21,841 nt of DNA from a virus. The DNA lies in the IMG/VR virus record IMGVR_UViG_3300043427_003614, positions 1-21,841 of that record. One strand, given 5' to 3'. Both the position numbers and the translations under genes were made by a program. Below the pieces are notes generated by a model. It did no database searches. It was given only the letters and a program-made list of their open reading frames with translations, and was not told where the DNA came from. This document shows, piece after piece, positions 3,001-21,209 of the stretch; position 1 is the first letter of the stretch, and each line of letters begins with the position of its first letter.

Positions 3001-3779
3001 TTTTGATCTATGTTTCTAACCTGGTTGAAAGCATTAGAAACCTTACTATAATACATGTCAAGGTCAGTAAGACCATATGAACCAATGGCATTCACACCAT
3101 CAGCATACTCAAAACAAGTAAGTTTATGGTGAGAGAATGTTGGTGTTGACTGGAATAATGAGTCGGAGTTGTCTGGGTTTGTATAAACTAATCCAGTCTC
3201 ATCTCCATCAAATATTGAGAATTGCCAGAAATAACAAGCACCAGTAATTCTAAAAATTGCTGATCTACCAACAGTTAAATCTAGAGGATTTGGAACATAC
3301 TTTGGACGAATTTTAGTCTTTCTAAGATCTAGTCCAACAATAGAAGTTCCCCTGGGTACAACTACTCCACCATAAAAACTGTTAAACTTATAAAGAAGGT
3401 TATCTTCCTGAGTAAGGTCAAAATTAGATTCTGGACCTAGTGAAAGGACTGAAGCAGCTAAAGATCCTACACCACCAGCTCTAGATACTGCATATGCCGC
3501 TCCTGCATTATCATAAATTGCATAACCAGGTCTATTATCAATTAAATGTTCCCCTGGAAATAAAAGAATAGTCGTTTTTTCTGTAATATCATTACTATTT
3601 CCTTTAACATATGAGAATCTTGCTGATTCTAAAAGAGCCCTCTGAATGGTTCTAAAGGGTCTTGTGAGTGAATTACCTTGATTTTCGATTGAATCCGTAG
3701 ACTCAAGGTCATTTGGATTCACATACAAGATTCTCCCTTCGACATTTTTAATGAAATTGTCTAATTTATTCAGAGGCAT
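1..3779 (-). CDS. Large virion structural / tail-fibre-type protein, C-terminus beyond window
   Basis: An open frame starts at ATG (3777-3779) and reads for about 1259 codons without a stop to the window edge, so the C-terminus is missing. The N-terminus (GRILYVNPNDLESTDS, then SLTRPFRTIQRALLESARFS and LLFPGEHLIDNRPG) resembles the start of pectin-lyase-like fibre proteins, where a parameter sentence leads into a right-handed beta-helix. Around residues 490-540 (TNSNSNFGQISLSSSGF) it matches a segment of the 1096-residue fibre protein at 8437-11727. Short beta modules of the type PHxLxTGDxVxV recur near 2850, 1770, 1170 and 50, and a PGSGY module lies near 390. No membrane segment or enzyme motif was recognised. 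A CATAAATA late promoter box lies 32 bases upstream. It is probably a tail fibre or other exposed virion protein; the exact role is unknown. Confidence 0.85.
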   Translation of the reverse strand, partial: MPLNKLDNFIKNVEGRILYVNPNDLESTDSIENQGNSLTRPFRTIQRALLESARFSYVKGNSNDITEKTTILLFPGEHLIDNRPGYAIYDNAGAAYAVSRAGGVGSLAASVLSLGPESNFDLTQEDNLLYKFNSFYGGVVVPRGTSIVGLDLRKTKIRPKYVPNPLDLTVGRSAIFRITGACYFWQFSIFDGDETGLVYTNPDNSDSLFQSTPTFSHHKLTCFEYADGVNAIGSYGLTDLDMYYSKVSNAFNQVRNIDQKFPAIPGGFEKQRPEWEIVGAFASDPINISNIISGNGSTPDSIVTVTTSSPHELNSGTPIKIRGVSGSGVTAPYNIATKVQNVLSDTQFTYLLPAIASYPNLNANPSAASATVTIETDTVSGASPYIFNISLRSVWGMNGLLADGNKASGFRSVVVAQFTAVSLQKDDRAFVKYDKQSRTYQGVALPTTAPFPYGAALPQGASETNSERVYHLDPNAIYRRGWESSHIKIINDAFIQIVSVFAIGFNKHFDAESGGDASITNSNSNFGQISLSSSGFKREAFDKDNNAFITSIISPRAIDTTTEEQIDWLSLNVGLTTQVGISSHLYLFGFTSADAPPTSLTQGYRIGARQQDKLYVIGAGTTYNADIFMCNNVIGSGTTALGTISSAKTYTVTSGPTLNTFTIGSHQIQTGEKIIILSDDGDLPENVISNQVYYAIRVSGTEIRLATSFTNAILGEAITVYGGTNLVISSRVSDKDSGEIGSPIQFDSVNSNWFIHTNASNQIYNSFNTLGVNGLGETTDLSFVRRITDERSLDEKIYKLRVVIPKELRNGKDPESGFVIQASSSTGARSNSDFTTPTISSSDYNYQKNPRFITSASVLTDTVTIVSELPHNLQTGDTVTVKSVTSSTNSTGENNIGYNGIFVVSVIDDVTFTYSTTDVFGVTHTPGTFTNDINVRTTGLPRFERTDLQGNLYIYRNEVISPYVEGSQDGIYHLYVLNANNAIPTEFTDIKYSQATTDLYPQLDRDNIDSNPRSAKTFAKRSPIGEIVTNDLKKSITRESSDLLLKSIGIGLTISSVSSSTNSATITFGRNHGLAGIVTYSSLTAGAAYNDGTYYDVKLLNGSQTGTWNGATAKVVVFSGAVVSADIIAPGSGYSSGQLYFEQSRIGAGNGNARFTVATSGISTNIGDVVQFTGDGTTSDTYHRITSVPSKNQISIAKTTGDSTILASQYAYVVGPSTRITGTSYNASTGTLTITCDSAHGLLAGNQFRVIDSSNNNQG

Positions 3780-4154: not shown

Positions 4155-4159
4155 TTAAG

Positions 4160-4243
4160 TGGGCGGAGGGGGACTCGAACCCCCACGGGATTACTCCCAG
4201 CGCATTTTAAGTGCGATTCGGCTACCGATTACGACACCCGCCC
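4160..4243 (-). tRNA. tRNA-Leu(UAA)
   Basis: This 84-nt class II tRNA has acceptor stem GGGCGGG paired with TCCGCCC (one G-U) and discriminator A. The anticodon loop CTTAAAA gives anticodon UAA, reading UUA. A long variable arm (GGGA-GTAA-TCCC) is diagnostic of Leu/Ser/Tyr-type tRNAs. The T-arm is GGGGG-TTCGAGT-CCCCC. The outermost anticodon-stem pair appears mismatched (T-C). No CCA is encoded, so 3' addition must come from a CCA-adding enzyme. It is the last of three tRNAs in the transcript. Confidence 0.95.
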
Positions 4244-4287
4244 GTTTGTATGAGACCATTATAACTCAGAAAGTCATAAAGGTCAAG

Positions 4288-4360
4288 TGCTCCTTGTCGG
4301 GATCGAACCGACCTTAGCCGAATTATGAGTTCGGAGCTTTCTCCAGAGAGCTAAAGGAGC
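4288..4360 (-). tRNA. tRNA with CAU anticodon (elongator Met or lysidine-type Ile)
   Basis: This 73-nt cloverleaf has acceptor GCTCCTT/AAGGAGC, anticodon stem CCGAA/TTCGG with loop CTCATAA (anticodon CAU), T-arm GTCGG-TTCGATC-CCGAC and discriminator A. The first acceptor pair is G-C, not the mismatch of initiator tRNA, so it is not fMet. The D-stem seems to have only three good pairs. Whether the wobble C is converted to lysidine (reading AUA as Ile) or left as Met cannot be decided from sequence by eye. No CCA is encoded. Confidence 0.93.
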
Positions 4361-4363
4361 GAT

Positions 4364-4451
4364 AGGAGAGATTCATACAGTGAAACAGAAGCGCACAATA
4401 AGTCATAGGTCTGTTTCATACCGACTTATAGGCAGGGTTTTTCACTCTCCT
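4364..4451 (-). ncRNA. Candidate structured RNA with interleaved helices (pseudoknot) between tRNAs
   Basis: This 88-base spacer lies between the CAU tRNA and the hairpin downstream of tRNA-Ile. Outer stem: AGGAGAG (minus strand, 4451-4445) pairs with CTCTCCT (4370-4364), 7 bp. Inside are two interleaved perfect helices: ATAAGTC (4429-4423) with GACTTAT (4404-4398), 7 bp, and TGAAACAGA (4418-4410) with TCTGTTTCA (4389-4381), 9 bp. The order a-b-a'-b' is an H-type pseudoknot. Read in the direction of transcription the connecting loops are 4, 5 and 8 nt, which is geometrically reasonable. It has no TTCRA T-loop and no complete cloverleaf, so it is not an ordinary tRNA, although its length is tRNA-like and a decayed tRNA is the main alternative. 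Function unknown. Confidence 0.45.
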
Positions 4452-4472
4452 TTTTTCAAGTAGGTTTACTGT

Positions 4473-4509
4473 TGCTTACCCTCAAAACCCACTACAAAAT
4501 GGGTAAGCA
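4473..4509 (-). other. Hairpin 3' of tRNA-Ile (9-bp perfect stem)
   Basis: TGCTTACCC (minus strand, 4509-4501) pairs perfectly with GGGTAAGCA (4481-4473) around a 19-nt loop. It begins two bases after the tRNA-Ile discriminator base. No T-run follows on the minus strand (AACAGTAAACC), so it is not a typical intrinsic terminator. It may be a tRNA 3'-processing signal or part of the structured spacer. Confidence 0.5.
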
Positions 4510-4511
4510 GA

Positions 4512-4583
4512 TGGGAATACTGGGAGTTGAACCCAGACTAAGCCCTTATAAGGAGCCCGCTCTAACCATTAAGCTATACTCCC
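4512..4583 (-). tRNA. tRNA-Ile(UAU)
   Basis: This 72-nt cloverleaf has acceptor GGGAGTA/TATTCCC (one G-U), D-stem GCTT/GAGC, anticodon stem GGCTC/GGGCT (with wobble pairs) enclosing CTTATAA, T-arm CTGGG-TTCAACT-CCCAG and discriminator A. U33 fixes the anticodon as UAU, which reads AUA (Ile) directly. Most bacteria read AUA with a lysidine-modified CAU tRNA, so UAU is uncommon. No CCA is encoded. It starts 6 bases after the antitoxin-like ORF and so is probably co-transcribed with it. Confidence 0.9.
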
Positions 4584-4589
4584 AAAAAC

Positions 4590-4772
4590 TCAACAACCTT
4601 CTTCGTGGTCCGTGTGTATTCGGATAAGGTCGTCAACTTCTTTATGATCTTTATAAGGAATTAGCATAGCATCGCCATATTCGCTTTTGATGAGGAAGGA
4701 TTTTCCGTTCTCAACCTCACCAATTATAGCATCAAAATCTGCTTGGAGTTCTTCGATAGTAATGCTTTTCAT
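4590..4772 (-). CDS. Phd/YefM-type antitoxin-like small protein (orphan)
   Basis: This 60-residue protein begins MKSITIEELQADFDAIIGEV and continues ENGKSFLIKSEYGDAMLIPY. That follows the Phd/YefM pattern: a short first strand, a helix, then x-x-V-x-x-G-x-x-x-x-I-x-x-x-x-G-x-x-x-x-x-x-P. In that family the N-terminal half is a DNA-binding dimer that represses its own operon, and the C-terminal tail wraps and neutralises an RNase toxin. Family members are commonly 75-90 residues; this one is short, so the toxin-binding tail is reduced. No RelE, YoeB, Doc or PIN-type toxin is adjacent. It lies 5 bases after the 61-residue ORF and 6 bases before tRNA-Ile, in the strong sigma70-type transcription unit. 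It may be a regulator, or an antitoxin against host toxins. The family call is by eye. Confidence 0.6.
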   Translation of the reverse strand: MKSITIEELQADFDAIIGEVENGKSFLIKSEYGDAMLIPYKDHKEVDDLIRIHTDHEEGC

Positions 4773-4777
4773 AATTC

Positions 4778-4963
4778 TTAAAAAGGATTTGAATAAACAA
4801 GGGTGTCTTCGTCAAGTTTATCCCGCACGACTTCCAGCACATTCATAAACTGGTCTACGGTCTCACATTCAACAACACGCTCTCCACCTTCGCTAGAATA
4901 GAGGTAAAACTTTCGGGCAAGGGTATCGACAACACATCGTGTCAGAACTTCTTCGGCAGGCAT
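4778..4963 (-). CDS. 61-residue hypothetical protein, first gene of the early-type island
   Basis: ATG at 4961-4963; the stop TAA lies 5 bases before the antitoxin-like ORF. It starts MPAEEVLTRCVVDTLARKFY and ends DKLDEDTLVYSNPF. It has no membrane segment or signal peptide and is moderately acidic; predicted strands around KFYLYS and RVVECE are followed by an amphipathic helix (VDQFMNVLEVVRDKL). I do not recognise a toxin fold in it. It is the first gene downstream of the perfect sigma70-type promoter, with a leader of about 20 bases and only a weak ribosome binding site. Its adjacency to the Phd-like ORF raises the possibility of a functional pair, but this is inference. Confidence 0.7.
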   Translation of the reverse strand: MPAEEVLTRCVVDTLARKFYLYSSEGGERVVECETVDQFMNVLEVVRDKLDEDTLVYSNPF

Positions 4964-4989: not shown

Positions 4990-5018
4990 ATTATAGGGCA
5001 TGTAGGGCGGGGTGTCAA
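4990..5018 (-). promoter_or_regulatory. Perfect sigma70-type promoter (TTGACA-17-TATAAT)
   Basis: The minus strand shows TTGACA (5018-5013), a 17-base spacer, and TATAAT (4995-4990). Both boxes are exact consensus at ideal spacing, so this should be recognised by a host primary sigma factor without phage proteins. The expected start is near 4983, some 20 bases before the 61-residue ORF. The TGA stop codon of the collagen fibre gene (5017-5015) lies inside the -35 box. Confidence 0.85.
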
Positions 5019-7762
5019 GCGTTTTTCAAATCATTAATTTGTGTCTGCAACTCTTTGACACATTCTACTAGAACGCCAACCAGACCGTCATAGTTTATAG
5101 ACTTAAATTTGTCACCATCAACAAGTTCTGGGAATACTTTTTCAACTTCTTGTGCAATTAAACCTATAGAAGGTTTCCCATTTGTCATCCAGTTAAAGGA
5201 TACTCCATTAAGGCTAGAAATCTTTTCAATTGGATTTTCAATAATGTTAACATTTTTCTTCAAATCTTTGTCAGATAGAGAAGTAAATGTAGTTGCTGTT
5301 AGATTTCCTGTAGAAGGATTAAAGGTTAATTTTGTTGTGGCAATACTTAATACTGATAGATCACCAGATGTAATTGTGGAATATCCAACATAATATGTGG
5401 CGTTTGTGGTCGTATCATTTACGACTGAGATAGAACCGGATCCACCAGACGTAGCTGCTGCACCCTGAATTCCTTGAGATCCTTGAGTGCCCTGAGTACC
5501 CTGAGTACCCTGGGCGCCCTGAGAACCTGTGGCTCCTGTAGATCCAAAAGTTCCTTGAGTGCCTTGAGTTCCTTGAGTTCCTTGTGCCCCCTGAGATCCT
5601 GTAGAACCTAAAGCGCCCTGTGTTCCTTGAGAACCCTGAACACCCTGAGTTCCTTGAGCGCCTTGAGAACCAACACTACCAAAGGATCCTTGAGTTCCCT
5701 GAACACCCTGAGTTCCTTGAGAACCTTGAGAACCAACGGCACCAAATGTTCCTTGAGTTCCTTGAGAACCTTGAGTTCCCTGTCTTCCTTGAGTTCCTTG
5801 GAGACCTTGAAGACCTTGAGTTCCTTGGACACCTTGAGTGCCTTGTGCTCCTTGAGATCCTGTGGCTCCAGTGAGACCCGAAACTCCCTGTGGACCTTGC
5901 AATCCTTGAAGACCCTGAGTACCTTGAGTACCTTGAGTTCCTTGAACACCTTGGGCTCCCTGTCTTCCTTGGGTTCCTTGTAGACCTTGAGTACCTTGTG
6001 CTCCTTGAGATCCTGTGCCGCCAGTGAGACCAGAGGATCCTTGAAGACCCTGAAGACCCTGAAGACCTTGAAGACCTTGAGTACCTTGGGTTCCCTGTCT
6101 TCCTTGGGTTCCTTGAAGACCTTGAGTACCTTGTAGACCCTGCCTTCCTTGAGTGCCCTGAAGACCTTGAGTACCTTGACGACCTTGAGTACCTTGGAGA
6201 CCCTGTAGACCAGCAGCAAACGGTGCAGTCCAACTGACACCAACTCCAGTAGAAGTTAGAACCGATCCGGCAATTCCTACATTATTGTAGATATCTCTAA
6301 GTGATGACTCTAATTCAATACTACCAATAAAGGAAGAATCTCCACCAACGTTTAGATTTTTTTCAATTCCAATTCCACCTTCTGTGACAATTGATCCAGT
6401 ATCTTTGCTAGTCGATTGTGTTGTGTCAGTTACATAAATTGCATCATTAATTTGGGTAGTTCCTGCATTTGAATCAATAATAAGATTTCCGGTTGTCGTG
6501 CTGACCGTATTTGTATCTAATTTAATATTATCAAATGTTCCTACACCAGTAACACTTAGATTGTTTATATTAACTTGAGAATCAAATGTAGAAATTCCAG
6601 TTACTCTTAATCTATTAAGTGTTGTAGAGTCAAAAACTTGAAGATCCTTGGTTGTTGCAAGTCCAATGACCTTAAGAGTATTAATTGTAGCAACACCAGT
6701 TACGTTTAGATCCGTTACTTCTGCTAATCCAACAATCTTTGATGCGGTTAAAATTCCTGTGAAGTATGCACTCGTTCCAGTAACAAATCCAATTGTTGTG
6801 ATTCCAGTAACTTGTAGATTTCGAGTCGTTGTTGTTCCAGTTACTCCAAGAGTCGAAATTGTTGCTATTCCAGTTACACGAAGATTATCAATCTCTGTTT
6901 GTCCAGTAAATCTAGAATATCCTCTTACATCTAGTAAATATTCTGGATTTGTGCTTCCAATACCAACACGGCTATTGATACTGTCATAAACAAAATTAGG
7001 TGCTCCATCTACTAATCCAGCATTATTATGAAACTGAACATTTGTAAAAGTTCCACCAGCTCCTGCTTGAACTGAACCTTGATTGACCCAGATTAAACCT
7101 CCTAGACTATCTTTAACTAAGATATCTTGAGTAAATCCAGGGCTGTTGTTAGAATCATAAATGGTTCCAGTAAGTCTAAGATCACCCTGAATATGTAATT
7201 CTTGTGTTGGGTTTGGAGTTCCAATACCCAATAATCCTGTGGGTGTTACTGCAAATATTGTTCCACCACTTCCAACATTTAGCCCTTTACCAACTGTTAG
7301 AATTCCAACAGAACTATTAAAAACTAAATTGGAAGATGTTGCAAAATCATTTAGTTCTTTAAATAAAACACTTCCGTTATTTCCTGGAGGAGATACCGTT
7401 ATTGTAGCGGCTATTGCAGGTGATCCATCAGGATTTAAATAACCACCTACTTGAATTGCATTTCCAACAAAATTGAGTTGACTAATGCTACTAATTCCTC
7501 CTGGAGGAGTTAAGATTCCTTCTTCATAAACACTAATTGCTCCAGGAATTAATCCTCCACCAACTGGGACCCAATATCTTTCTCCTGGTCTTTCAAGAAG
7601 AGTTATAACTTGATATTGAGTTCCTAATGGTATTACTTCTCCAGGTACCGCAGGATCTCCAAGATTTGGTTCTGCTTGATCTAGACCAAGATACCTATAC
7701 CTATCATCAGATAGTGATCCTTGTGGAGTTCTTTTAGATCGATTACTGATATATCTTGGCAT
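5015..7762 (-). CDS. Tail fibre with collagen-like stalk and peptidase S74 chaperone domain
   Basis: A 915-residue protein. The N-terminal third contains the modules LGIGTPNPTQELHIQG and RVGIGSTNPEYLLDVRG. Residues about 285-430 hold a ladder of xVTGI(A/S)T(I/F) repeats. Residues 518-769 are 84 uninterrupted Gly-X-Y triplets, mostly Gly-X-Gln, forming a predicted trimeric stalk. The C-terminal 86 residues are a peptidase S74 / intramolecular chaperone domain: S830-DKDL-K835 gives the Ser-Lys dyad, followed by GLIAQEVEKVFPELV and a final helix. In this family the C-terminal domain drives trimerisation and then cleaves itself off before the serine. It is thus probably a trimeric, self-processed receptor-binding or whisker-type fibre. 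The gene begins 2 bases after the 222-residue ORF, and its stop overlaps the -35 box of the next promoter. Confidence 0.9.
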   Translation of the reverse strand: MPRYISNRSKRTPQGSLSDDRYRYLGLDQAEPNLGDPAVPGEVIPLGTQYQVITLLERPGERYWVPVGGGLIPGAISVYEEGILTPPGGISSISQLNFVGNAIQVGGYLNPDGSPAIAATITVSPPGNNGSVLFKELNDFATSSNLVFNSSVGILTVGKGLNVGSGGTIFAVTPTGLLGIGTPNPTQELHIQGDLRLTGTIYDSNNSPGFTQDILVKDSLGGLIWVNQGSVQAGAGGTFTNVQFHNNAGLVDGAPNFVYDSINSRVGIGSTNPEYLLDVRGYSRFTGQTEIDNLRVTGIATISTLGVTGTTTTRNLQVTGITTIGFVTGTSAYFTGILTASKIVGLAEVTDLNVTGVATINTLKVIGLATTKDLQVFDSTTLNRLRVTGISTFDSQVNINNLSVTGVGTFDNIKLDTNTVSTTTGNLIIDSNAGTTQINDAIYVTDTTQSTSKDTGSIVTEGGIGIEKNLNVGGDSSFIGSIELESSLRDIYNNVGIAGSVLTSTGVGVSWTAPFAAGLQGLQGTQGRQGTQGLQGTQGRQGLQGTQGLQGTQGRQGTQGTQGLQGLQGLQGLQGSSGLTGGTGSQGAQGTQGLQGTQGRQGAQGVQGTQGTQGTQGLQGLQGPQGVSGLTGATGSQGAQGTQGVQGTQGLQGLQGTQGRQGTQGSQGTQGTFGAVGSQGSQGTQGVQGTQGSFGSVGSQGAQGTQGVQGSQGTQGALGSTGSQGAQGTQGTQGTQGTFGSTGATGSQGAQGTQGTQGTQGSQGIQGAAATSGGSGSISVVNDTTTNATYYVGYSTITSGDLSVLSIATTKLTFNPSTGNLTATTFTSLSDKDLKKNVNIIENPIEKISSLNGVSFNWMTNGKPSIGLIAQEVEKVFPELVDGDKFKSINYDGLVGVLVECVKELQTQINDLKNA
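5456..6211 (-). repeat. Collagen-like repeat, 84 Gly-X-Y triplets in 9-bp units
   Basis: Counted directly from the translation: 84 consecutive triplets with glycine in every first position. The common units are GTQ, GLQ, GAQ, GSQ and GRQ. Longer-period landmarks (GLT-G-T-GSQGAQG, TFGxxGSQG) recur, suggesting duplication of larger blocks. Only one proline is present (GPQ). The near-identical 9-bp units should be prone to slippage or recombination. Confidence 0.95.
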
Positions 7763-8436: not shown

Positions 8437-11400
8437 TTATCTCAGTGCAAGTATAAGTGGGGTAACTTCTGCCTGTATTGCCTTACTAAAATCTCTTCCT
8501 CTAATGATTGCGGATGGTTGATTAATCTGAAATCCTTCACCAATATCAAAATTACCTTTTTGATCTGTACTCGTAAATGGAATTTGTGCCCCATCTAAAG
8601 CAACAATTTCATTTTCCTTAATTGGAACACTACCTTTGAAAGGCGTTGATGTATTTATATCAGTTCCTGTTCCGATATATTCAAAAGAATGAGAGCTTGT
8701 AAGAATACGACTGATTCTCTTCAGTGCAACATCTTCTCCACCAAATAATTCATAAGGAATAAATTCATTGAAAGTAACCGTGGTAATTCCAGACAAAGTT
8801 ACTTGTGTTGCAACATCTACAGTGTAATAAATTGGTTGAGTATTTACTGTAGCAGATGCTCCTCCAGAACCATCAATGAAAACTTCCAGATTTTGTGTTG
8901 GTAAGTAATTTCTTCCACTGTTTATAACATCAATTGCCGTAATAGCACCAGATACCTCATCAATGGTTGGACTTATTTCTGCAATAATTCCTTGAGGTCC
9001 CTTTGGTTGTTGAGATAGATCATTTGCATCTCGAATAACTACTGTTGGTGGATTAATTGCACTATATCCAGATCCACCATTCGTAATAGTAATCGAGTCA
9101 ACCTGTCTCATAGGTTCTGCCAAGATAGTACTCGGCAGACCTGTTGTATCGGCGTCGGCATAATTACTCAAATCAATCTTGAAGAAGAGCGCTTGCCCGT
9201 CATATGGTCTTCTAGGATTACCGCTCGAATCAAACAAATTAATGAACGTAACAGTATCAGACCCGGCATCAACTCCATCAATAGATCTTGTTGATGGATA
9301 TCTTGATACTGTTCCGGTGAATTCGGTAGAACCTAATCCCACAGCAACTAATCCAAAGTTACCAAAGGATGAGTTAGAGTTTGTTAGGTCACAAGAACCA
9401 CCAGTGTCCGCATAGATTGCAATATCACAGTTAATTGTGAAAATAGAAACTAACTGAGCATATCCGTTATTGCTAATTGATACTCCAATTCCTGCCTCAT
9501 TATATTGAGTGAAGGAGTCACAAACCATACACTTCAAATCATTACCAATTGTTGCCGCAGTTGCATGGTCTCCATTAATTTTCATACCAATACTGCCACT
9601 CATAAAGTTGGTGCAGTTACGAATATATGGAGATCTCCATCTTCCGGTAGGTCCTTCTGTAGCAGGACCTGGTTCTAAATATCCGGATCTAGCTCTTGAA
9701 ATTCCTGTTGGTGGTGGGAATGCCACTGCCGCACCTTTAATAGAAATTGGTGCATCAGCATCAAATGGATTTTTACTGTAAGCAAAACTTAAGTTCTCAA
9801 CTAAACATCCTCTTCTTACATAGAATACGTCATCATCATTTTGTGGGCATATTGTTACGAGTCTTAAATCTTGACCAGTAACAGTAACATCAGTTCTCAA
9901 TCCAATTGGGTTATTTTCAAAATAAACACCAGAACGAACCATGATAGTATCACCTGGTTGTGCAGCAGCCGCTGCAGCGCCAATTGTAAGTTTTGCCGAA
10001 CCTTCCGTTCTTCCATTATTATCATCATTTCCATACTTAGAAACGTATATAATATTTTTGGAATCAGCACCTGGTGGAGACCAAACAATTTTACCATCAG
10101 GGTAAGTTATTCTAGGTGAAGCAGTAGGGCTTCCACCAATGATTGTTGTAACAATACCAGCACAAACTGTAATTGCAGAAACTACGTTTGAACATCCATC
10201 ATAGTTTGTATTTGATCCAACAATTGGATCATCCTGCAGCATTAAATCTTTAATTTGAGGAATGCTATTACCTATTCCTTGATATGACTTTGGTGGAGAT
10301 ACATTATTAATTACGTATCTTGAAAGTTGTGCTGCCGTGGTGATTGCAACAATCGAAGCATCCTTAATACTGTAACCATTTACATCAGTTCCTGTAATAT
10401 GAATTAGAGTATTTCCATTATAATAAGATAAACCGGCGCCAACTGAACCTGAGTTACCACCTCTAGTGATATCGTAAGTAATTGCTTTTAGAATATCTTT
10501 GATATCATCTTTACAAGATGTATAATCATTTGAAGAAAGATTAAATGCTGGTGATTTGTAATCAGTACTTGTAATAAATCCTACTGCCTCATTTGCAATA
10601 AAATCTAAGTTCAATCTAATTAAATTAGCGGCATCAAAAAATCTTCCTCCAATGATACTACCAGAAGTATCAACTCCGACAGTTGCTAATACATTTCTTG
10701 GAACTTGATATTGCTCTGATCTAAATCCGACGTTTTCGTTGGTATCATATATTGCACTATCATTAAAAAATACATCTCTATTATTAAACTCAACATCTCT
10801 CTCAGGATTATCCGTACCAAATCCAACTAATCCGGCACTAGTTGTGGTAATTACAGTTCCAGCAAATCCGACTTGGAGAGTTGTTTGTAGCGTGGTAGCG
10901 CCATCAACATCTAAAGTGTCGTTAAGTGTAGTAGCACCATCGACATCCAGAGTATCATTGAGAGTGGTAGCCCCATCAACGTCTAAAGTTGCGTTTAAAG
11001 TAGTGGCACCATCAACATCCAGAGTATTGTTAAGGGTGCTGGCACCATCAACATCAAGAGTTGAATTTAATGTGGTTGCACCATCGACATCCAGAGTTGC
11101 ATTTAATGTGGTACCGCCATCAACATCCAGAGTATCATTGAGAGTGGTAGCCCCATCAACATCTAAAGTATTGTTAAGAGTGGTAGCACCATCAACATCC
11201 AATGTGGAGTTTAGAGTAGTTCCGCCATCAACATCAAGAGTTGAATTTAACGTGGTAGCACCATCAACATCTAGAGTTGCATTTAAAGTAGTATCTCCAT
11301 CAACGTCTAAAGTATTATTAAGAGTAGTAGCACCGTCAACATCAAGAGTTGAATTTAACGTGGTTGCACCATCAACATCTAGAGTTGAATTTAATGTGGT

Positions 11401-11727
11401 TGCACCATCAACATTTAAAGTTGCATCAAAGTCAACTGCTTCAGTTGCATGAAGGGTTCCGGTAATATCTAAAGTTGCTGATGGATTACTATTTTGAATA
11501 CCAACATTGGTCATTCTGTAGATATTTCCGCTACTATTATATCCCCACAAGTCTTGTGTACGGATATCTGCAATCCAATTTGGATTGCCAGCATTAACGA
11601 CCGGTATTAAATTATCTGTTCCAATACCAAGGCTATTTGATTGAACAAAATTTAGAGCAGCAAATGCTTGTGCTAAATCATCTGTTGGAATAAACACTCC
11701 TTGGTCTTGAACATAAAATCTTGTCAT
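8437..11727 (-). CDS. Tail fibre with 12-residue repeat array and pectin-lyase-like domain
   Basis: A 1096-residue protein. Residues 1-100 begin MTRFYVQDQGVFIPTDDLAQ and include an NPSATLDITG module. Residues 104-283 are 15 tandem copies of a 12-residue unit (LDVDGATTLNST). Residues about 557-850 begin IIYVSKYGNDDNNGRTEGSA and continue PGDTIMVRSGVYFENNP, typical of right-handed beta-helix (pectin-lyase/DUF1565-like) fibre domains. TNSNSSFGNFGLVAVG near residue 780 matches the large fibre at the left edge. A GGSGY-PPTV-I module with NSGRNYLP lies near residues 885-960. It is a probable long tail fibre or other host-contact protein. A perfect TATAAATA late promoter lies 21 bases upstream. No S74 or other maturation domain is visible at its C-terminus. 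Confidence 0.85.
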   Translation of the reverse strand: MTRFYVQDQGVFIPTDDLAQAFAALNFVQSNSLGIGTDNLIPVVNAGNPNWIADIRTQDLWGYNSSGNIYRMTNVGIQNSNPSATLDITGTLHATEAVDFDATLNVDGATTLNSTLDVDGATTLNSTLDVDGATTLNNTLDVDGDTTLNATLDVDGATTLNSTLDVDGGTTLNSTLDVDGATTLNNTLDVDGATTLNDTLDVDGGTTLNATLDVDGATTLNSTLDVDGASTLNNTLDVDGATTLNATLDVDGATTLNDTLDVDGATTLNDTLDVDGATTLQTTLQVGFAGTVITTTSAGLVGFGTDNPERDVEFNNRDVFFNDSAIYDTNENVGFRSEQYQVPRNVLATVGVDTSGSIIGGRFFDAANLIRLNLDFIANEAVGFITSTDYKSPAFNLSSNDYTSCKDDIKDILKAITYDITRGGNSGSVGAGLSYYNGNTLIHITGTDVNGYSIKDASIVAITTAAQLSRYVINNVSPPKSYQGIGNSIPQIKDLMLQDDPIVGSNTNYDGCSNVVSAITVCAGIVTTIIGGSPTASPRITYPDGKIVWSPPGADSKNIIYVSKYGNDDNNGRTEGSAKLTIGAAAAAAQPGDTIMVRSGVYFENNPIGLRTDVTVTGQDLRLVTICPQNDDDVFYVRRGCLVENLSFAYSKNPFDADAPISIKGAAVAFPPPTGISRARSGYLEPGPATEGPTGRWRSPYIRNCTNFMSGSIGMKINGDHATAATIGNDLKCMVCDSFTQYNEAGIGVSISNNGYAQLVSIFTINCDIAIYADTGGSCDLTNSNSSFGNFGLVAVGLGSTEFTGTVSRYPSTRSIDGVDAGSDTVTFINLFDSSGNPRRPYDGQALFFKIDLSNYADADTTGLPSTILAEPMRQVDSITITNGGSGYSAINPPTVVIRDANDLSQQPKGPQGIIAEISPTIDEVSGAITAIDVINSGRNYLPTQNLEVFIDGSGGASATVNTQPIYYTVDVATQVTLSGITTVTFNEFIPYELFGGEDVALKRISRILTSSHSFEYIGTGTDINTSTPFKGSVPIKENEIVALDGAQIPFTSTDQKGNFDIGEGFQINQPSAIIRGRDFSKAIQAEVTPLILALR
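10879..11418 (-). repeat. Tandem array, 15 x 36 bp coding for a 12-residue repeat
   Basis: Fifteen units of 36 bp with no spacer, found by spacing between successive copies of the VDG codons. Protein consensus: LDVDGATTLN(S/N/A/D)T. Variation is mainly at one position (S/N/A/D) and in synonymous bases. It is flanked by FDAT upstream and TLQVGFAG downstream. It probably forms a regular beta-solenoid or trimeric beta-prism shaft. Confidence 0.95.
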
Positions 11728-17953: not shown

Positions 17954-19465
17954 TTACATTACCACATTATAATTTAATTGTGAATAAAGAACATAGAAGT
18001 TATCAGGATTTGATGAACTAATTAATGGAACATCCGTACCTGATGATGCTGAAGAAATTAAAGATTGTTGAGGATTATTTCCACCTGAGGGCATCATAAT
18101 TACATTTGGTTCTGGTTCTGGAAGTGCTCCTACATTTGGTGATGGTGTTGGTAATCCTTGCAATTGCGTAGAAGAAATTAAAGATGGCGTAGAAGATACT
18201 TGAGAAGGAGTTGCATTCACATTAGCAATATTTTTTCCCGATTCCGATTCGAATTGAGACATTGATTCTTGTTGAGGAGTCAATGAAAGTTCTGATGCAT
18301 TTGGCATCATAGGACTTTGTGGAGTTGCTGCTACAGTTGGTGGAGGAGATGTTGGGTTTGATTGTGCTTGTGCTTGAGTTTCTCCATCTTCACCCTTCAA
18401 ATATCCATAACCTAACCTTAAACCAGCCCCTATCCAACCAATAGGACCAGGAAGCATTGATGTTGCACTTAAAGATGCAGCGGCATAATCTTTTTGACTA
18501 ATATCATATGCTGTTGCTGCGCCACCTAAAGCAACATTTAATCCAGGAACAAATCTTCCAAAAGCTCCAAGCCCTTTGCCTGCAGATGCGGCACCAGTTG
18601 CACCTCTAGTCGAAGATCCAATACCCCTAAAAAAGTTACCAAGTTTAGTCGTCCAATTTCCACCAGTCACAGGAACTCTTGGTTTCGGGGTCGTAGGTGG
18701 TTTTCTAGCACCAGCACCAAATAATCTTCCCACCAATGGCACTTTTGCAAGTTGACTTCCGGCAAATCTAAATGGAGCAAGAGCAAGTCGAATTGCAATA
18801 CCACTTATTCTTCCAGCAATACCAAGAACAGAACGAACTACCAGACCAAACCCAACATTGATTGCGGCAATTGCTCCTATTGCATACGCAATATTTTTAA
18901 GAACATTATCTTTAATTTGCTGTAGTTTTTCTTTATTTCCTTGTTCTGCCGCTTTAAGTGTTTCAATTCCTTGGTTTGTCAACCATCCAAGAAATAATGT
19001 TGTTAGAGCGTTTCCAATATTTCCAAATACACCACTAACTTTTCTTTCAAGAGCAATGATAGGTGCAGATAAAGCAGCAGTAATTTTTTTCTCTAATTCA
19101 GATTCTTTTCCTATTCTAACCTGCCTCTCAGCAAGTTTCCTCTCATTCTCTTGCTCTCCTTTTAGTCTTTGTTGCTCTAAAACACTATCTTGCTGTATTA
19201 GATTACCAATATTTACAAGACCGGTATTTAAGAATATTACTTCTGATCGAAGAGAATTGATTTGTTCTTGAAGTGTGGAAATTTGTTGAGTTTGAGCTAC
19301 CACTAATGAAGAACTATCATCAGTTCTCTTAACTAAAGCACCGCCACGACCAAAAACACTACTAGGAGTTATAGTTCTTTTAAAAAGAGCTTTACGAACT
19401 TCTGCTGACAGGGGAGATCCTGTAACGGGGTCGATTCCACTTTGTGCTATCGTTACAGGATCCAT
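17954..19465 (-). CDS. Candidate tape-measure protein (gp29 position)
   Basis: A 503-residue protein. Residues ~55-150 are a charged coiled coil (QQISTLQEQINSLRSEV; QQRLKGEQENERKLAER). Then come GNIGNALTTLFLGWLTNQGI, a hydrophobic stretch (NIAYAIGAIAAINVGFGLVV) and two glycine-rich hydrophobic segments. The C-terminal 140 residues are a low-complexity Pro/Ser/Gln region ending LYSQLNYNVVM. No homology to T4 gp29 can be claimed by eye. The gene follows the tube-cap gene, gp26 and the 57-residue ORF, where the tape measure sits in many tail modules and near where gp29 lies in T4 (26-51-27-28-29). T4 gp29 has 590 residues. The coiled coil plus hydrophobic segments resemble those in the next gene, suggesting paralogy. 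Confidence 0.6.
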   Translation of the reverse strand: MDPVTIAQSGIDPVTGSPLSAEVRKALFKRTITPSSVFGRGGALVKRTDDSSSLVVAQTQQISTLQEQINSLRSEVIFLNTGLVNIGNLIQQDSVLEQQRLKGEQENERKLAERQVRIGKESELEKKITAALSAPIIALERKVSGVFGNIGNALTTLFLGWLTNQGIETLKAAEQGNKEKLQQIKDNVLKNIAYAIGAIAAINVGFGLVVRSVLGIAGRISGIAIRLALAPFRFAGSQLAKVPLVGRLFGAGARKPPTTPKPRVPVTGGNWTTKLGNFFRGIGSSTRGATGAASAGKGLGAFGRFVPGLNVALGGAATAYDISQKDYAAASLSATSMLPGPIGWIGAGLRLGYGYLKGEDGETQAQAQSNPTSPPPTVAATPQSPMMPNASELSLTPQQESMSQFESESGKNIANVNATPSQVSSTPSLISSTQLQGLPTPSPNVGALPEPEPNVIMMPSGGNNPQQSLISSASSGTDVPLISSSNPDNFYVLYSQLNYNVVM

Positions 19466-19466
19466 C

Positions 19467-19640
19467 TTAATTGCTTATGCCTTGTTTTAAGTTTTCTTCT
19501 TCAATATACTGTGAAAGAAGAGTAATGTAAACTTCTCTTTCCCAGGGCATCATATTTTCTAACTCTGTTAATGAATATTTATGATGCTGTATCAATTGAA
19601 ATGTAGTTTTGTAATATGACTCCAACGACGTGTGAGCCAT
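19467..19640 (-). CDS. 57-residue tail assembly protein, gp51 position; likely frameshift partner of gp26
   Basis: ATG at 19638-19640, TAA at 19467-19469, one base before the next gene. The protein begins MAHTSLESYYKTTFQLIQHH and contains SLTELENMMPWEREVYITLL, a helix-MPWERE-helix signature typical of small tail assembly proteins encoded just before tape-measure genes. T4 has gene 51 in this position, but T4 gp51 is much longer, so that equivalence is positional only. Its frame is -1 relative to gp26, and a T TTT TTC heptamer lies near the gp26 stop, so a gp26-57 fusion can be made by -1 frameshifting. The AGGA before its own ATG is too close for good independent initiation. It may be expressed alone, as a fusion, or both. 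Confidence 0.75.
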   Translation of the reverse strand: MAHTSLESYYKTTFQLIQHHKYSLTELENMMPWEREVYITLLSQYIEEENLKQGISN

Positions 19641-19642
19641 TC

Positions 19643-20362
19643 CTAGGCGAAAAAAGATGTTAAACCCTCCAATACAACCTCACTTTCTACACCAGTATTT
19701 GGATTTTTTAATTTAACAGTATGAGATAATTTGGGCATCGTTTCGAAGAACTTTTCAATCTGCTTAAATTGATTTGTAGTAAGTTGCTCTAGAAAATCTG
19801 CAAGTTCTTTCTTTGTACAATCAGATGAAGACCAGGATTCTTCCTCATTATAAATTTGTTCAATGCAAGAAGAAATCATATCAAAAGTATCATCAACACT
19901 TACATTCATATCATCACCAAAATTATTTTTAATAAATTCCTCCATTGAAGGATATTTCATCCTAAGGATTAAATGATCGTCAAGTTTAATATCTCTAGAG
20001 TGTTCTTTACTTACATTCACTTCAATATCATCTAGATTAATTGAGACTGGAACTTGCGTTGTTCCATCATCAGGGCAAGTAATTAGAACATCTACAGATT
20101 CTCCTACAGACTTTCCACGAATATTCAAAAACAAATATTCAATATCAAAAGTTGCCAGATTTTCTACTTTGATTCCTCTGGTAAGAATACAATTTGAAAT
20201 TACAGTTTTTACTGCCTCTGCAATTTGTTTTGTATCCTCACTCTCCATAGCAATAATTAAAATCTTTTCTTCTTTAACAAGAAAGGGTCTATACTTAATA
20301 TTCTTTTTTAATGAAGGAACTTCCAACTCATAAGTCGGTGTTGCAATTTTAGGTAAAGGCAT
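19643..20362 (-). CDS. gp26: Baseplate hub assembly protein gp26
   Basis: A 239-residue protein starting MPLPKIATPTYELEVPSLKK, with KYRPFLVKEEKILIIAMESE and the region NCILTRGIKVENLATFDIEYLFLNIRGKS, characteristic of the T4 gp26 (T4_baseplate) family. It has a central DDIEVNVS/MKYPSMEEFI part and a C-terminal helical part (ADFLEQLTTNQFKQIEKF). T4 gp26 has 208 residues. It acts in hub assembly; by gene position it corresponds to the first of two tail assembly chaperones. It ends SFFA before TAG, with TTT TTC forming a slippery site 3 bases before the stop. A late promoter box lies 31 bases upstream, overlapping the stop of the tube-cap gene. Confidence 0.85.
   Translation of the reverse strand: MPLPKIATPTYELEVPSLKKNIKYRPFLVKEEKILIIAMESEDTKQIAEAVKTVISNCILTRGIKVENLATFDIEYLFLNIRGKSVGESVDVLITCPDDGTTQVPVSINLDDIEVNVSKEHSRDIKLDDHLILRMKYPSMEEFIKNNFGDDMNVSVDDTFDMISSCIEQIYNEEESWSSSDCTKKELADFLEQLTTNQFKQIEKFFETMPKLSHTVKLKNPNTGVESEVVLEGLTSFFA
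19649..19655 (-). promoter_or_regulatory. Candidate -1 ribosomal frameshift site (T TTT TTC)
   Basis: The minus strand reads TCT TTT TTC GCC TAG in the gp26 frame. The heptamer T TTT TTC has the canonical X XXY YYZ form. After a -1 slip the next codons are CGC CTA GGA ATG, entering the 57-residue ORF frame directly through its own ATG. No strong downstream stem was found by eye; a weak GGCTC/GAGTC pairing follows. Confidence 0.6.
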
Positions 20363-20393: not shown

Positions 20394-20401
20394 TATTTAT
20401 T
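20394..20401 (-). promoter_or_regulatory. T4-type late promoter box (AATAAATA)
   Basis: The minus strand reads AATAAATA 31 bases before the gp26 ATG. The TAA stop codon of the tube-cap gene (20399-20397) is part of the box. It matches NATAAATA. Confidence 0.6.
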
Positions 20402-21209
20402 CTGAAAAATTAACATTAGTATTGGCACCGAATCTAGAAAAATCTAGATTATTTCCGATTCTATAAGCATCTTCTGCAGAAATAGGAGAATCAATTGGAT
20501 TACCATTGACAAGACTCTTAGGTAAATTTGTAGATTGACCTGGTTGATTGTTGTTATTACTTCCTACAATCTCATCTAATGAAAGAGATTTTCCTGCAAT
20601 GTAACGATCATATTGAAATATGACAGACATCTTTAAAGTATCCGAAGCAGCATAAGTTACTGGAAGCGATGCAATTTGTGATGGAAATAATCCTATGAAG
20701 GTATATTCAACTTCTTTATTGTAATCTCTATCAAACTTAGTGATTGTCGTTCTATCAGATTTATAATATTCTGGATATTGCATTCTAGAAATATAATCCT
20801 TACGGTTTTGCCCTATTGGGGCAAGGTTACTCTCAATTGGATTATTAGAACCACTTGCAATAAACTCCATCCAACTTTCCATAAATTTAAGAGCATTATA
20901 ATTTTTATCTACATAAAAATCAAGTGAAATTGTATCATATATTCTAGTATGAGCAAACTTTTCAGTTATGCCCATAAAGTTTCCGCTGATACTTGCTGTT
21001 GCTAAAGAGGTAGTTGGAAGAGATGCTGAGTAACAAAGTAGTCCAGCGTCTTCGGCAATGAATCTTTGACTAATGCCTTTACGAGAAAGATATGCCATTA
21101 GTGGACCACCAAGAGGTCCCACCCCACCAAATCTTACTTCATAGTGAGAAGTTTGTGCGAGATTCGTAAAGAGTGGCTTAAAGTCGGATATCCTGCGTTG
21201 AATAGGCAC
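20397..21209 (-). CDS. Tail tube cap/initiator-type protein (gp48/gp54-like, gp19 superfamily)
   Basis: A 270-residue protein starting with GTG (21207-21209). The start is supported by AAAAGG 8 bases upstream and by the absence of an ATG that would preserve the N-terminal domain. It begins MPIQRRISDFKPLFTNLAQT and has SHYEVRFGGVG, AGLLCYSASLPTTSLATASI, GITEKFAHTRIYDTISLDFY and KFMESWMEFI, the pattern of gp19-superfamily tube proteins (first strand, P-T at the inner loop, F-A-x-x-R, L-x-F-Y, W). At 270 residues it is longer than the T4 tube protein gp19 (163) and shorter than gp54 (320) and gp48 (364). In T4, gp48 and gp54 close the hub and initiate tube assembly. The C-terminal ~60 residues are Asn/Ser-rich. 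Cap versus initiator cannot be decided here. Confidence 0.7.
   Translation of the reverse strand: MPIQRRISDFKPLFTNLAQTSHYEVRFGGVGPLGGPLMAYLSRKGISQRFIAEDAGLLCYSASLPTTSLATASISGNFMGITEKFAHTRIYDTISLDFYVDKNYNALKFMESWMEFIASGSNNPIESNLAPIGQNRKDYISRMQYPEYYKSDRTTITKFDRDYNKEVEYTFIGLFPSQIASLPVTYAASDTLKMSVIFQYDRYIAGKSLSLDEIVGSNNNNQPGQSTNLPKSLVNGNPIDSPISAEDAYRIGNNLDFSRFGANTNVNFSE

Follow-up and report, generated by a model that had tools for sequence, protein, structure and literature searches.

In phage lambda, the tail assembly chaperones gpG and gpGT are reportedly produced by means of a frameshift (Levin, 1993; Xu, 2004). The lambda G/GT scheme has been reviewed (PMC5009743). The gp26 and gp51 proteins of T4 act as chaperones in the assembly of the hub (PMC3004832), and passages in two later papers (PMC10885494 and PMC12846349) credit Vladimirov, Gautam and Davidson (2022; Virology 566:9-15) with the identification of gp26/gp51 as the tail assembly chaperone (TAC) genes of T4-like phages. 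According to the passage reporting Vladimirov et al. in the first of these papers, some T4-like phages have a short gene and a fused gene in place of the frameshift (PMC10885494), and the corresponding passage in the second credits the same authors with slippery sequences rich in T that lie in TAC-N genes of T4-like phages (PMC12846349). The TAC frameshift of Vandenendeviridae and Andersonviridae, as described in passages of the latter paper, resembles the locus presented here in having a slippery site rich in T where TAC-N ends and a -1 frame that is open throughout the family; it differs in its motif (GTTTTT) and in belonging to other phage families, and no hairpin is reported in these passages (PMC12846349). 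Cyanophage gp51 has only about 20% of the length of T4 gp51 and is without the first ~200 residues (Sullivan et al., 2010, PMC3037559). In the literature examined, which did not include Vladimirov et al. (2022) itself, we found no description of the cyanophage frameshift site or of its hairpin.

We analyzed a stretch of DNA of 21,841 nucleotides from an ocean virus (IMG/VR record IMGVR_UViG_3300043427_003614), referred to here as the window, in which gp26 is directly followed by a 57-aa ORF (Table 1). The two very likely constitute a single tail assembly chaperone gene that is decoded in two ways by a predicted -1 ribosomal frameshift. This reading is based on the conservation of the heptamer, the frame and the hairpin, on missing start codons, on the chaperone fold and on the fusion found in T4; the slip itself, its rate and the chaperone roles are what we infer from these data, and the fusion protein is a predicted one. 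On the minus strand, the 3' end of gp26 reads GAG GGT TTA ACA TCT TTT TTC GCC TAG, followed by GA ATG GCT CAC. The TAG stop codon is located at 19645-19643 and the ATG of the 57-aa ORF, which lies in the -1 frame relative to gp26, at 19640-19638, 2 nt past the TAG. The initial annotation had pointed to the heptamer T TTT TTC in this end of gp26 and had proposed that a -1 slip runs directly into the 57-aa ORF; the heptamer was indeed found at 19655-19649, the FF-RLG-MAH reading was reproduced, and the -1 frame is without a stop codon from 34 nt upstream of the gp26 TAG to the end of the 57-aa ORF. The predicted fusion consists of gp26 residues 1-238, RLG and the 57 aa, together 298 aa. Peptides spanning the predicted junction would be ...LTSFFR, in which the Arg is read from the -1 frame, and LGMAHTSLESYYK, of which the LG precedes the annotated start. 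If translation began at its own ATG, the product of the 57-aa ORF would start with MAHTSLESYYK. The junction of one related locus (L001) is identical to that of the window.

Table 1. Features of the chaperone locus and its neighbors (positions in the window).
Feature	Position	Strand	Remarks
gp26, tail assembly chaperone, predicted short form (TAC-N, lambda G-like)	19643..20362	minus	239 aa; PF12322, phrog_150, AF2 model
Slippery heptamer T TTT TTC	19649..19655	minus	zero frame TTT TTC; -1 frame TTT TTT
57-aa ORF, gp51-like C-terminal extension (lambda T-like)	19467..19640	minus	phrog_634 and phrog_150 C-terminal end
Predicted -1 frameshift product gp26-gp51 (TAC-NC, GT-like)	19467..20362	minus	298 aa; junction SFF-RLG-MAH
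Downstream hairpin	19616..19640	minus	arms 19640-19634 and 19622-19616; 8-nt spacer after heptamer; includes ATG of 57-aa ORF
Shine-Dalgarno-like GGAGG	19666..19670	minus	10 nt upstream of heptamer; possible dnaX-type stimulator
Tail tube-like protein upstream of gp26	20397..21209	minus	PF23849 E 1.5e-15; phrog_45 E 2.9e-39
503-aa ORF after chaperone pair, candidate tape measure protein	17954..19465	minus	position

The heptamer alone is weak evidence, since in-frame X XXY YYZ heptamers are not rare in the window (25 in 6,631 codons), and another T TTT TTC is present in a 447-aa ORF. At the level of sequence it is the conservation of the heptamer that decides, not its mere presence. Junctions were read at loci recovered with five different gp26 queries of viral contigs and in annotated phages. 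T TTT TTC is present in 252 of the 258 distinct loci and T TTT TTT in two more, located exactly at codons -3/-2 before the stop codon. The four loci without the heptamer are those of T4 and PP01, where gene 51 is not downstream, and those of two Vibrio phages. T TTT TTC was also found in 17 of 17 loci of a second deep clade (L306-L322), which is about 28-36% identical to the query; in two members (L318 and L320) the heptamer is displaced by two codons away from the stop codon, and the fusion reading FFRFSISYDSLANHY shifts along with it so that the register is kept. Annotated phages with T TTT TTC include Cronobacter LPCS28, Aeromonas phiWae14 and S-PM2, and those with T TTT TTT are Caulobacter Cr30, Sinorhizobium phiN3 and Acinetobacter SH-Ab 15599. 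An early stop codon in the -1 frame was seen in one locus only (L061, about 71 nt past the gp26 stop), which could be an assembly error as this is a metagenome contig. Searches of the viral contigs with Cr30 and T4 gp26 yielded few related loci. In the comparison of related phages that had been proposed, no synonymous loss of the heptamer was seen and the -1 relation was kept, across all Kyanoviridae that were sampled and several further T4-like groups.

A different situation was observed in CBA120 (L298, around 3280-3480; Ackermannviridae), in which gp26 is followed by about 500 nt without an annotated gene. The open -1 frame encodes a gp51-like peptide LLSYFVMCDELKAHGYSIFEISESMPWHL and has no start codon at the junction. 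The junction, GAG ATT TTC ATT TAA, contains no obvious standard heptamer, and CBA120 possibly represents another type of frameshift.

Without any frameshift, the heptamer could also merely reflect a conserved Phe-Phe near the C-terminus of gp26 and a genome rich in A+T, and a Phe-Phe near the C-terminus is indeed also found in T4 gp26. Codon choice was compared within 138 gp26 genes that share less than 85% identity across their last 100 residues. In the Phe-Phe before the stop codon, the first codon is TTT in 138 of 138 genes and the second TTC in 136 of 138, against a TTT share of 74% for Phe elsewhere in the same genes. The codon preceding this Phe-Phe always ends in T, compared to a background of 66% (S/N/D/A/G codons). 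Phe-Phe pairs elsewhere in gp26 (n = 152) are encoded by TTC TTT (99), TTT TTT (43), TTC TTC (8) and in only two cases by TTT TTC. An in-frame T TTT TTY occurs at the junction in 138/138 genes and once in 32,885 other gp26 codons; owing to the relatedness of the gp26 sequences the counts are not independent of each other, but within the same genes the contrast is very large. In T4-type phages, in which gene 51 does not follow, the aligned Phe-Phe is encoded as GAG TTC TTT or GAG TTT TTT, i.e., with TTC TTT or G TTT TTT. These codon patterns make a mere protein constraint extremely unlikely. Chance as an origin of the heptamer was ruled out by the codon statistics of the diverged gp26 genes.

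The identical fusion would also result, without a ribosomal slip, if transcription slipped on the six T in a row and added one base or lost two. The homopolymer run is conserved and three phages carry seven T. In bacteria, transcriptional slippage usually needs about nine bases in a run. At the junctions, six T followed by C are found in nearly all lineages and never eight T at those that were read, and the hairpin downstream stands at the spacing usual for ribosomal frameshifting, which makes transcriptional slippage very unlikely as the source of the fusion.

A third possibility is the one given by the database annotation, namely that the 57-aa ORF is a separate gp51 gene translated from its own ATG by re-initiation after the gp26 TAG 2 nt earlier. 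It is annotated as such in P-SSM2, S-PM2 and other phages, and most of the window's relatives have an ATG. We searched the -1 frame from 10 nt before to 26 nt after the gp26 stop codon in 232 distinct junctions for start codons. An ATG was present in 149 of them, only a GTG or TTG in 36, and no ATG, GTG or TTG in the remaining 47. A Shine-Dalgarno sequence at 5-16 nt was found for one of the 149 junction ATGs. The initial annotation had described the ATG of the 57-aa ORF as poorly served by ribosome binding bases, and the window agrees with this: there is no Shine-Dalgarno sequence at normal spacing and the GGAGG (19670-19666) is far too early. In S-RIM2 and S-RSM4 the annotated gp51 is forced to begin 51 nt downstream, within the conserved domain, and in S-WAM2 gp51 was left without annotation; the -1 reading is conserved despite these annotations (FFRIALLHTNLRSYYE, FFRIALFHNTLEGYYK). 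Separate translation also leaves the invariant TTT TTC codons unexplained, the ATG in the window sits in the stem of the hairpin, and in T4 the two parts are fused. Two Vibrio phages (L086, 3700-3730; L096, 3200-3230) do fit a separate gene, as their gp26 and gp51-like ORFs overlap tightly (TAATGATG) and no heptamer is present; these phages probably make the extension by re-initiation, which would be a third arrangement of the pair. For the window, an independently initiated gp51 is considered unlikely.

The predicted frameshift site is followed by a hairpin. To locate structure around the heptamer, sliding 36-nt segments were folded in 138 relatives, with z-scores derived from dinucleotide shuffles that do not preserve codons. 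A single sharp minimum of folding energy was found in the segment starting 6 nt past the heptamer (mean z -2.7), whereas the segments on both sides mostly gave z between -0.8 and +0.7. In the clade of the window the mean z is -3.25 and 96% of the cells of the stem alignment are paired, with one pair varying between G-C, U-A and A-U; this hairpin is paired in 40 of 40 distinct sequences, compared to a maximum of 29 in shuffles. The S-SM2 clade has a different and shorter stem with a 10-nt spacer that covaries (one pair, 63/76 against a shuffle maximum of 56), and the S-WAM2 clade a third stem, 90% paired, in which changes are one-sided only. Not all lineages share a strong hairpin; it is weak or missing in some, among them the S-RIM2 group, LPCS28, phiWae14 and L296, where it is weak, and the whole 76-nt region of the window is not unusually stable (z 0.10), indicating that the hairpin signal is local and not universal. 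In S-PM2 (L299, 4215-4265) a 14-bp hairpin TTCTATAATAATCTCGAAAATTATTATAGAA is located directly after T TTT TTC.

The -1 frameshift signal of Escherichia coli dnaX is composed of a Shine-Dalgarno-like element about 10 nt upstream, a heptamer, and a hairpin a few nt downstream. Its heptamer is A AAA AAG and frameshifting is about 50% efficient; the dnaX product is unrelated to that of the window. The window has a similar layout, with the GGAGG as a possible third part. In 81 of the 138 relatives, GGAGG or GAGG precedes the heptamer at a spacing of exactly 10 nt, and it is missing in the other 57; its conservation is partly explained by protein constraint, as it is part of conserved Glu-Gly codons. 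The GGAGG is regarded as no more than a possible stimulator.

Profile searches assigned gp26 to PF12322 (T4_baseplate; E 1.2e-76, 257.7 bits with a cut-off of 24.5) and to phrog_150 (E 1.2e-83). The 57-aa ORF matches phrog_634, annotated as baseplate hub assembly catalyst (gp51), with E 5.1e-26 over profile positions 60-112 of 121. It also matches the C-terminal end of phrog_150 (241-278 of 282, E 0.00098), likely because T4 gp51 spans both the gp26 domain and the extension. T4 gp51 itself (249 aa) matches phrog_150 over positions 13-280 of 282 (E 1e-87) as well as phrog_634 (2-103), and T4 gp26 (208 aa) matches phrog_150 over positions 14-235. From these matches it follows that T4 gp51 is a gp26-like domain and the extension in one ORF and that T4 gp26 is the domain alone. 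Since T4 gp51 corresponds to full-length gp26 plus gp51, two genes supply both forms in T4. T4 carries 26 and 51 as separate genes in divergent orientation, with gene 25 following gene 26, in contrast to the single gene with a predicted frameshift in the window.

The AlphaFold2 model of gp26 (pLDDT 84.9) was compared to the PDB. Structural re-alignment gave as top matches the HK97 TAC protein 2ob9 (Z 7.9, rmsd 3.9, 84 aligned residues), 3fgx (Z 7.9), YqbN 3klu (Z 7.1) and 5ir0 (Z 5.1), the latter three of which we take to be TAC relatives, compared to Z of at most 4.0 for unrelated chains; the Z-scores are middling, and it took the structural re-alignment to bring out the TAC match. A Foldseek search of the PDB with the gp26 model gave no significant E-value, a PDB sequence search with the gp26 profile returned nothing (best E 0.49), and a search of NCBIfam gave no matches. 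The modeled fold thus supports gp26 as a TAC-N (G-like) protein.

Directly after the chaperone pair lies the 503-aa ORF; its homologue in P-SSM2 (E 3e-22) is the gene that follows gp51. No family found for it in profile searches names a tape measure, and no alignment was obtained between the annotated tape measure protein of Cr30 and the P-SSM2 gene at the equivalent position, so that the tape measure assignment is positional. Further away, the window contains tRNA genes for Leu(taa), Met(cat) and Ile(tat) (4159-4584, minus strand), and several of the short plus-strand ORFs listed over these tRNAs are artefacts. A 60-aa ORF (4590-4772, minus strand) matches Phd/YefM antitoxins, though below threshold (E 0.0005), with no evident toxin gene adjoining; the neighboring ORF (4778-4963) is assigned to DUF7294. 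Two large minus-strand ORFs encode a 915-aa fiber-like protein (5015-7762), which carries collagen-type repeats and, at its C-terminus, a self-cleaving chaperone domain (Peptidase_S74), and a 1096-aa protein with many LDVDGATTLN-type repeats near the N-terminus (8437-11727).

The arrangement in the window resembles lambda gpG/gpGT in having a short chaperone and a longer -1 product (a predicted one in the window) and in the predicted TAC fold of the short form; the pair also follows a tail tube-type gene and precedes what is presumed, from its position, to be the tape measure gene. The heptamers differ (G GGA AAG in lambda, T TTT TTC followed by a hairpin in the window), and the likeness is one of organization and fold rather than of a direct sequence comparison with gpG/gpGT. 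The proposal that gp26 is the upstream chaperone and the 57-aa ORF the T-like extension is supported by sequence, by the modeled fold and by the fusion in T4 gp51. Recasting gp26/gp51 as equivalents of G/GT, as had been suggested on the basis of the window, is likewise supported, but it is not new (Vladimirov et al., 2022) and T4 itself uses two divergent genes.

In the proposed two-way decoding, most ribosomes would terminate at the gp26 TAG and produce the short chaperone, and a fraction of the ribosomes positioned on TTT TTC would slip back by one base, with both Phe-tRNAs re-pairing to TTT TTT. The slipped ribosomes would continue in the -1 frame across the gp51-like part and complete the 298-aa long form. 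The hairpin about 8 nt downstream, and perhaps the GGAGG 10 nt upstream, would increase the rate of slipping. By analogy with lambda G/GT, the more common short form would be expected to coat the tape measure protein, and recruitment of tail tube subunits would fall to the rarer long form.

The frameshift is very probably real; the mechanism itself is known, and the hairpin together with the scale of conservation are the main additions of this study. The predicted frameshift also explains why cyanophage gp51 is so short, as the missing part is gp26, to which it would be joined. The annotation 'gp51' in cyanophages should accordingly be replaced by a gp26-gp51 fusion, and a very abundant group of marine phages comes under the lambda G/GT scheme. 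The signal is short, well conserved and easily testable, and the comparison with T4 provides a natural contrast between frameshifting and gene duplication as the source of two chaperone forms. On balance, we lean towards a broader scenario in which the hairpin-stimulated frameshift is the sole source of the long chaperone in cyanophages and several other T4-like groups, with the hairpin burying the gp51 start codon in the clade of the window, and in which this would be the older arrangement, from which a T4-type duplication gave rise to genes 26 and 51. If this scenario is true, every cyanophage 'gp51' in the databases would be a mis-annotated fragment.
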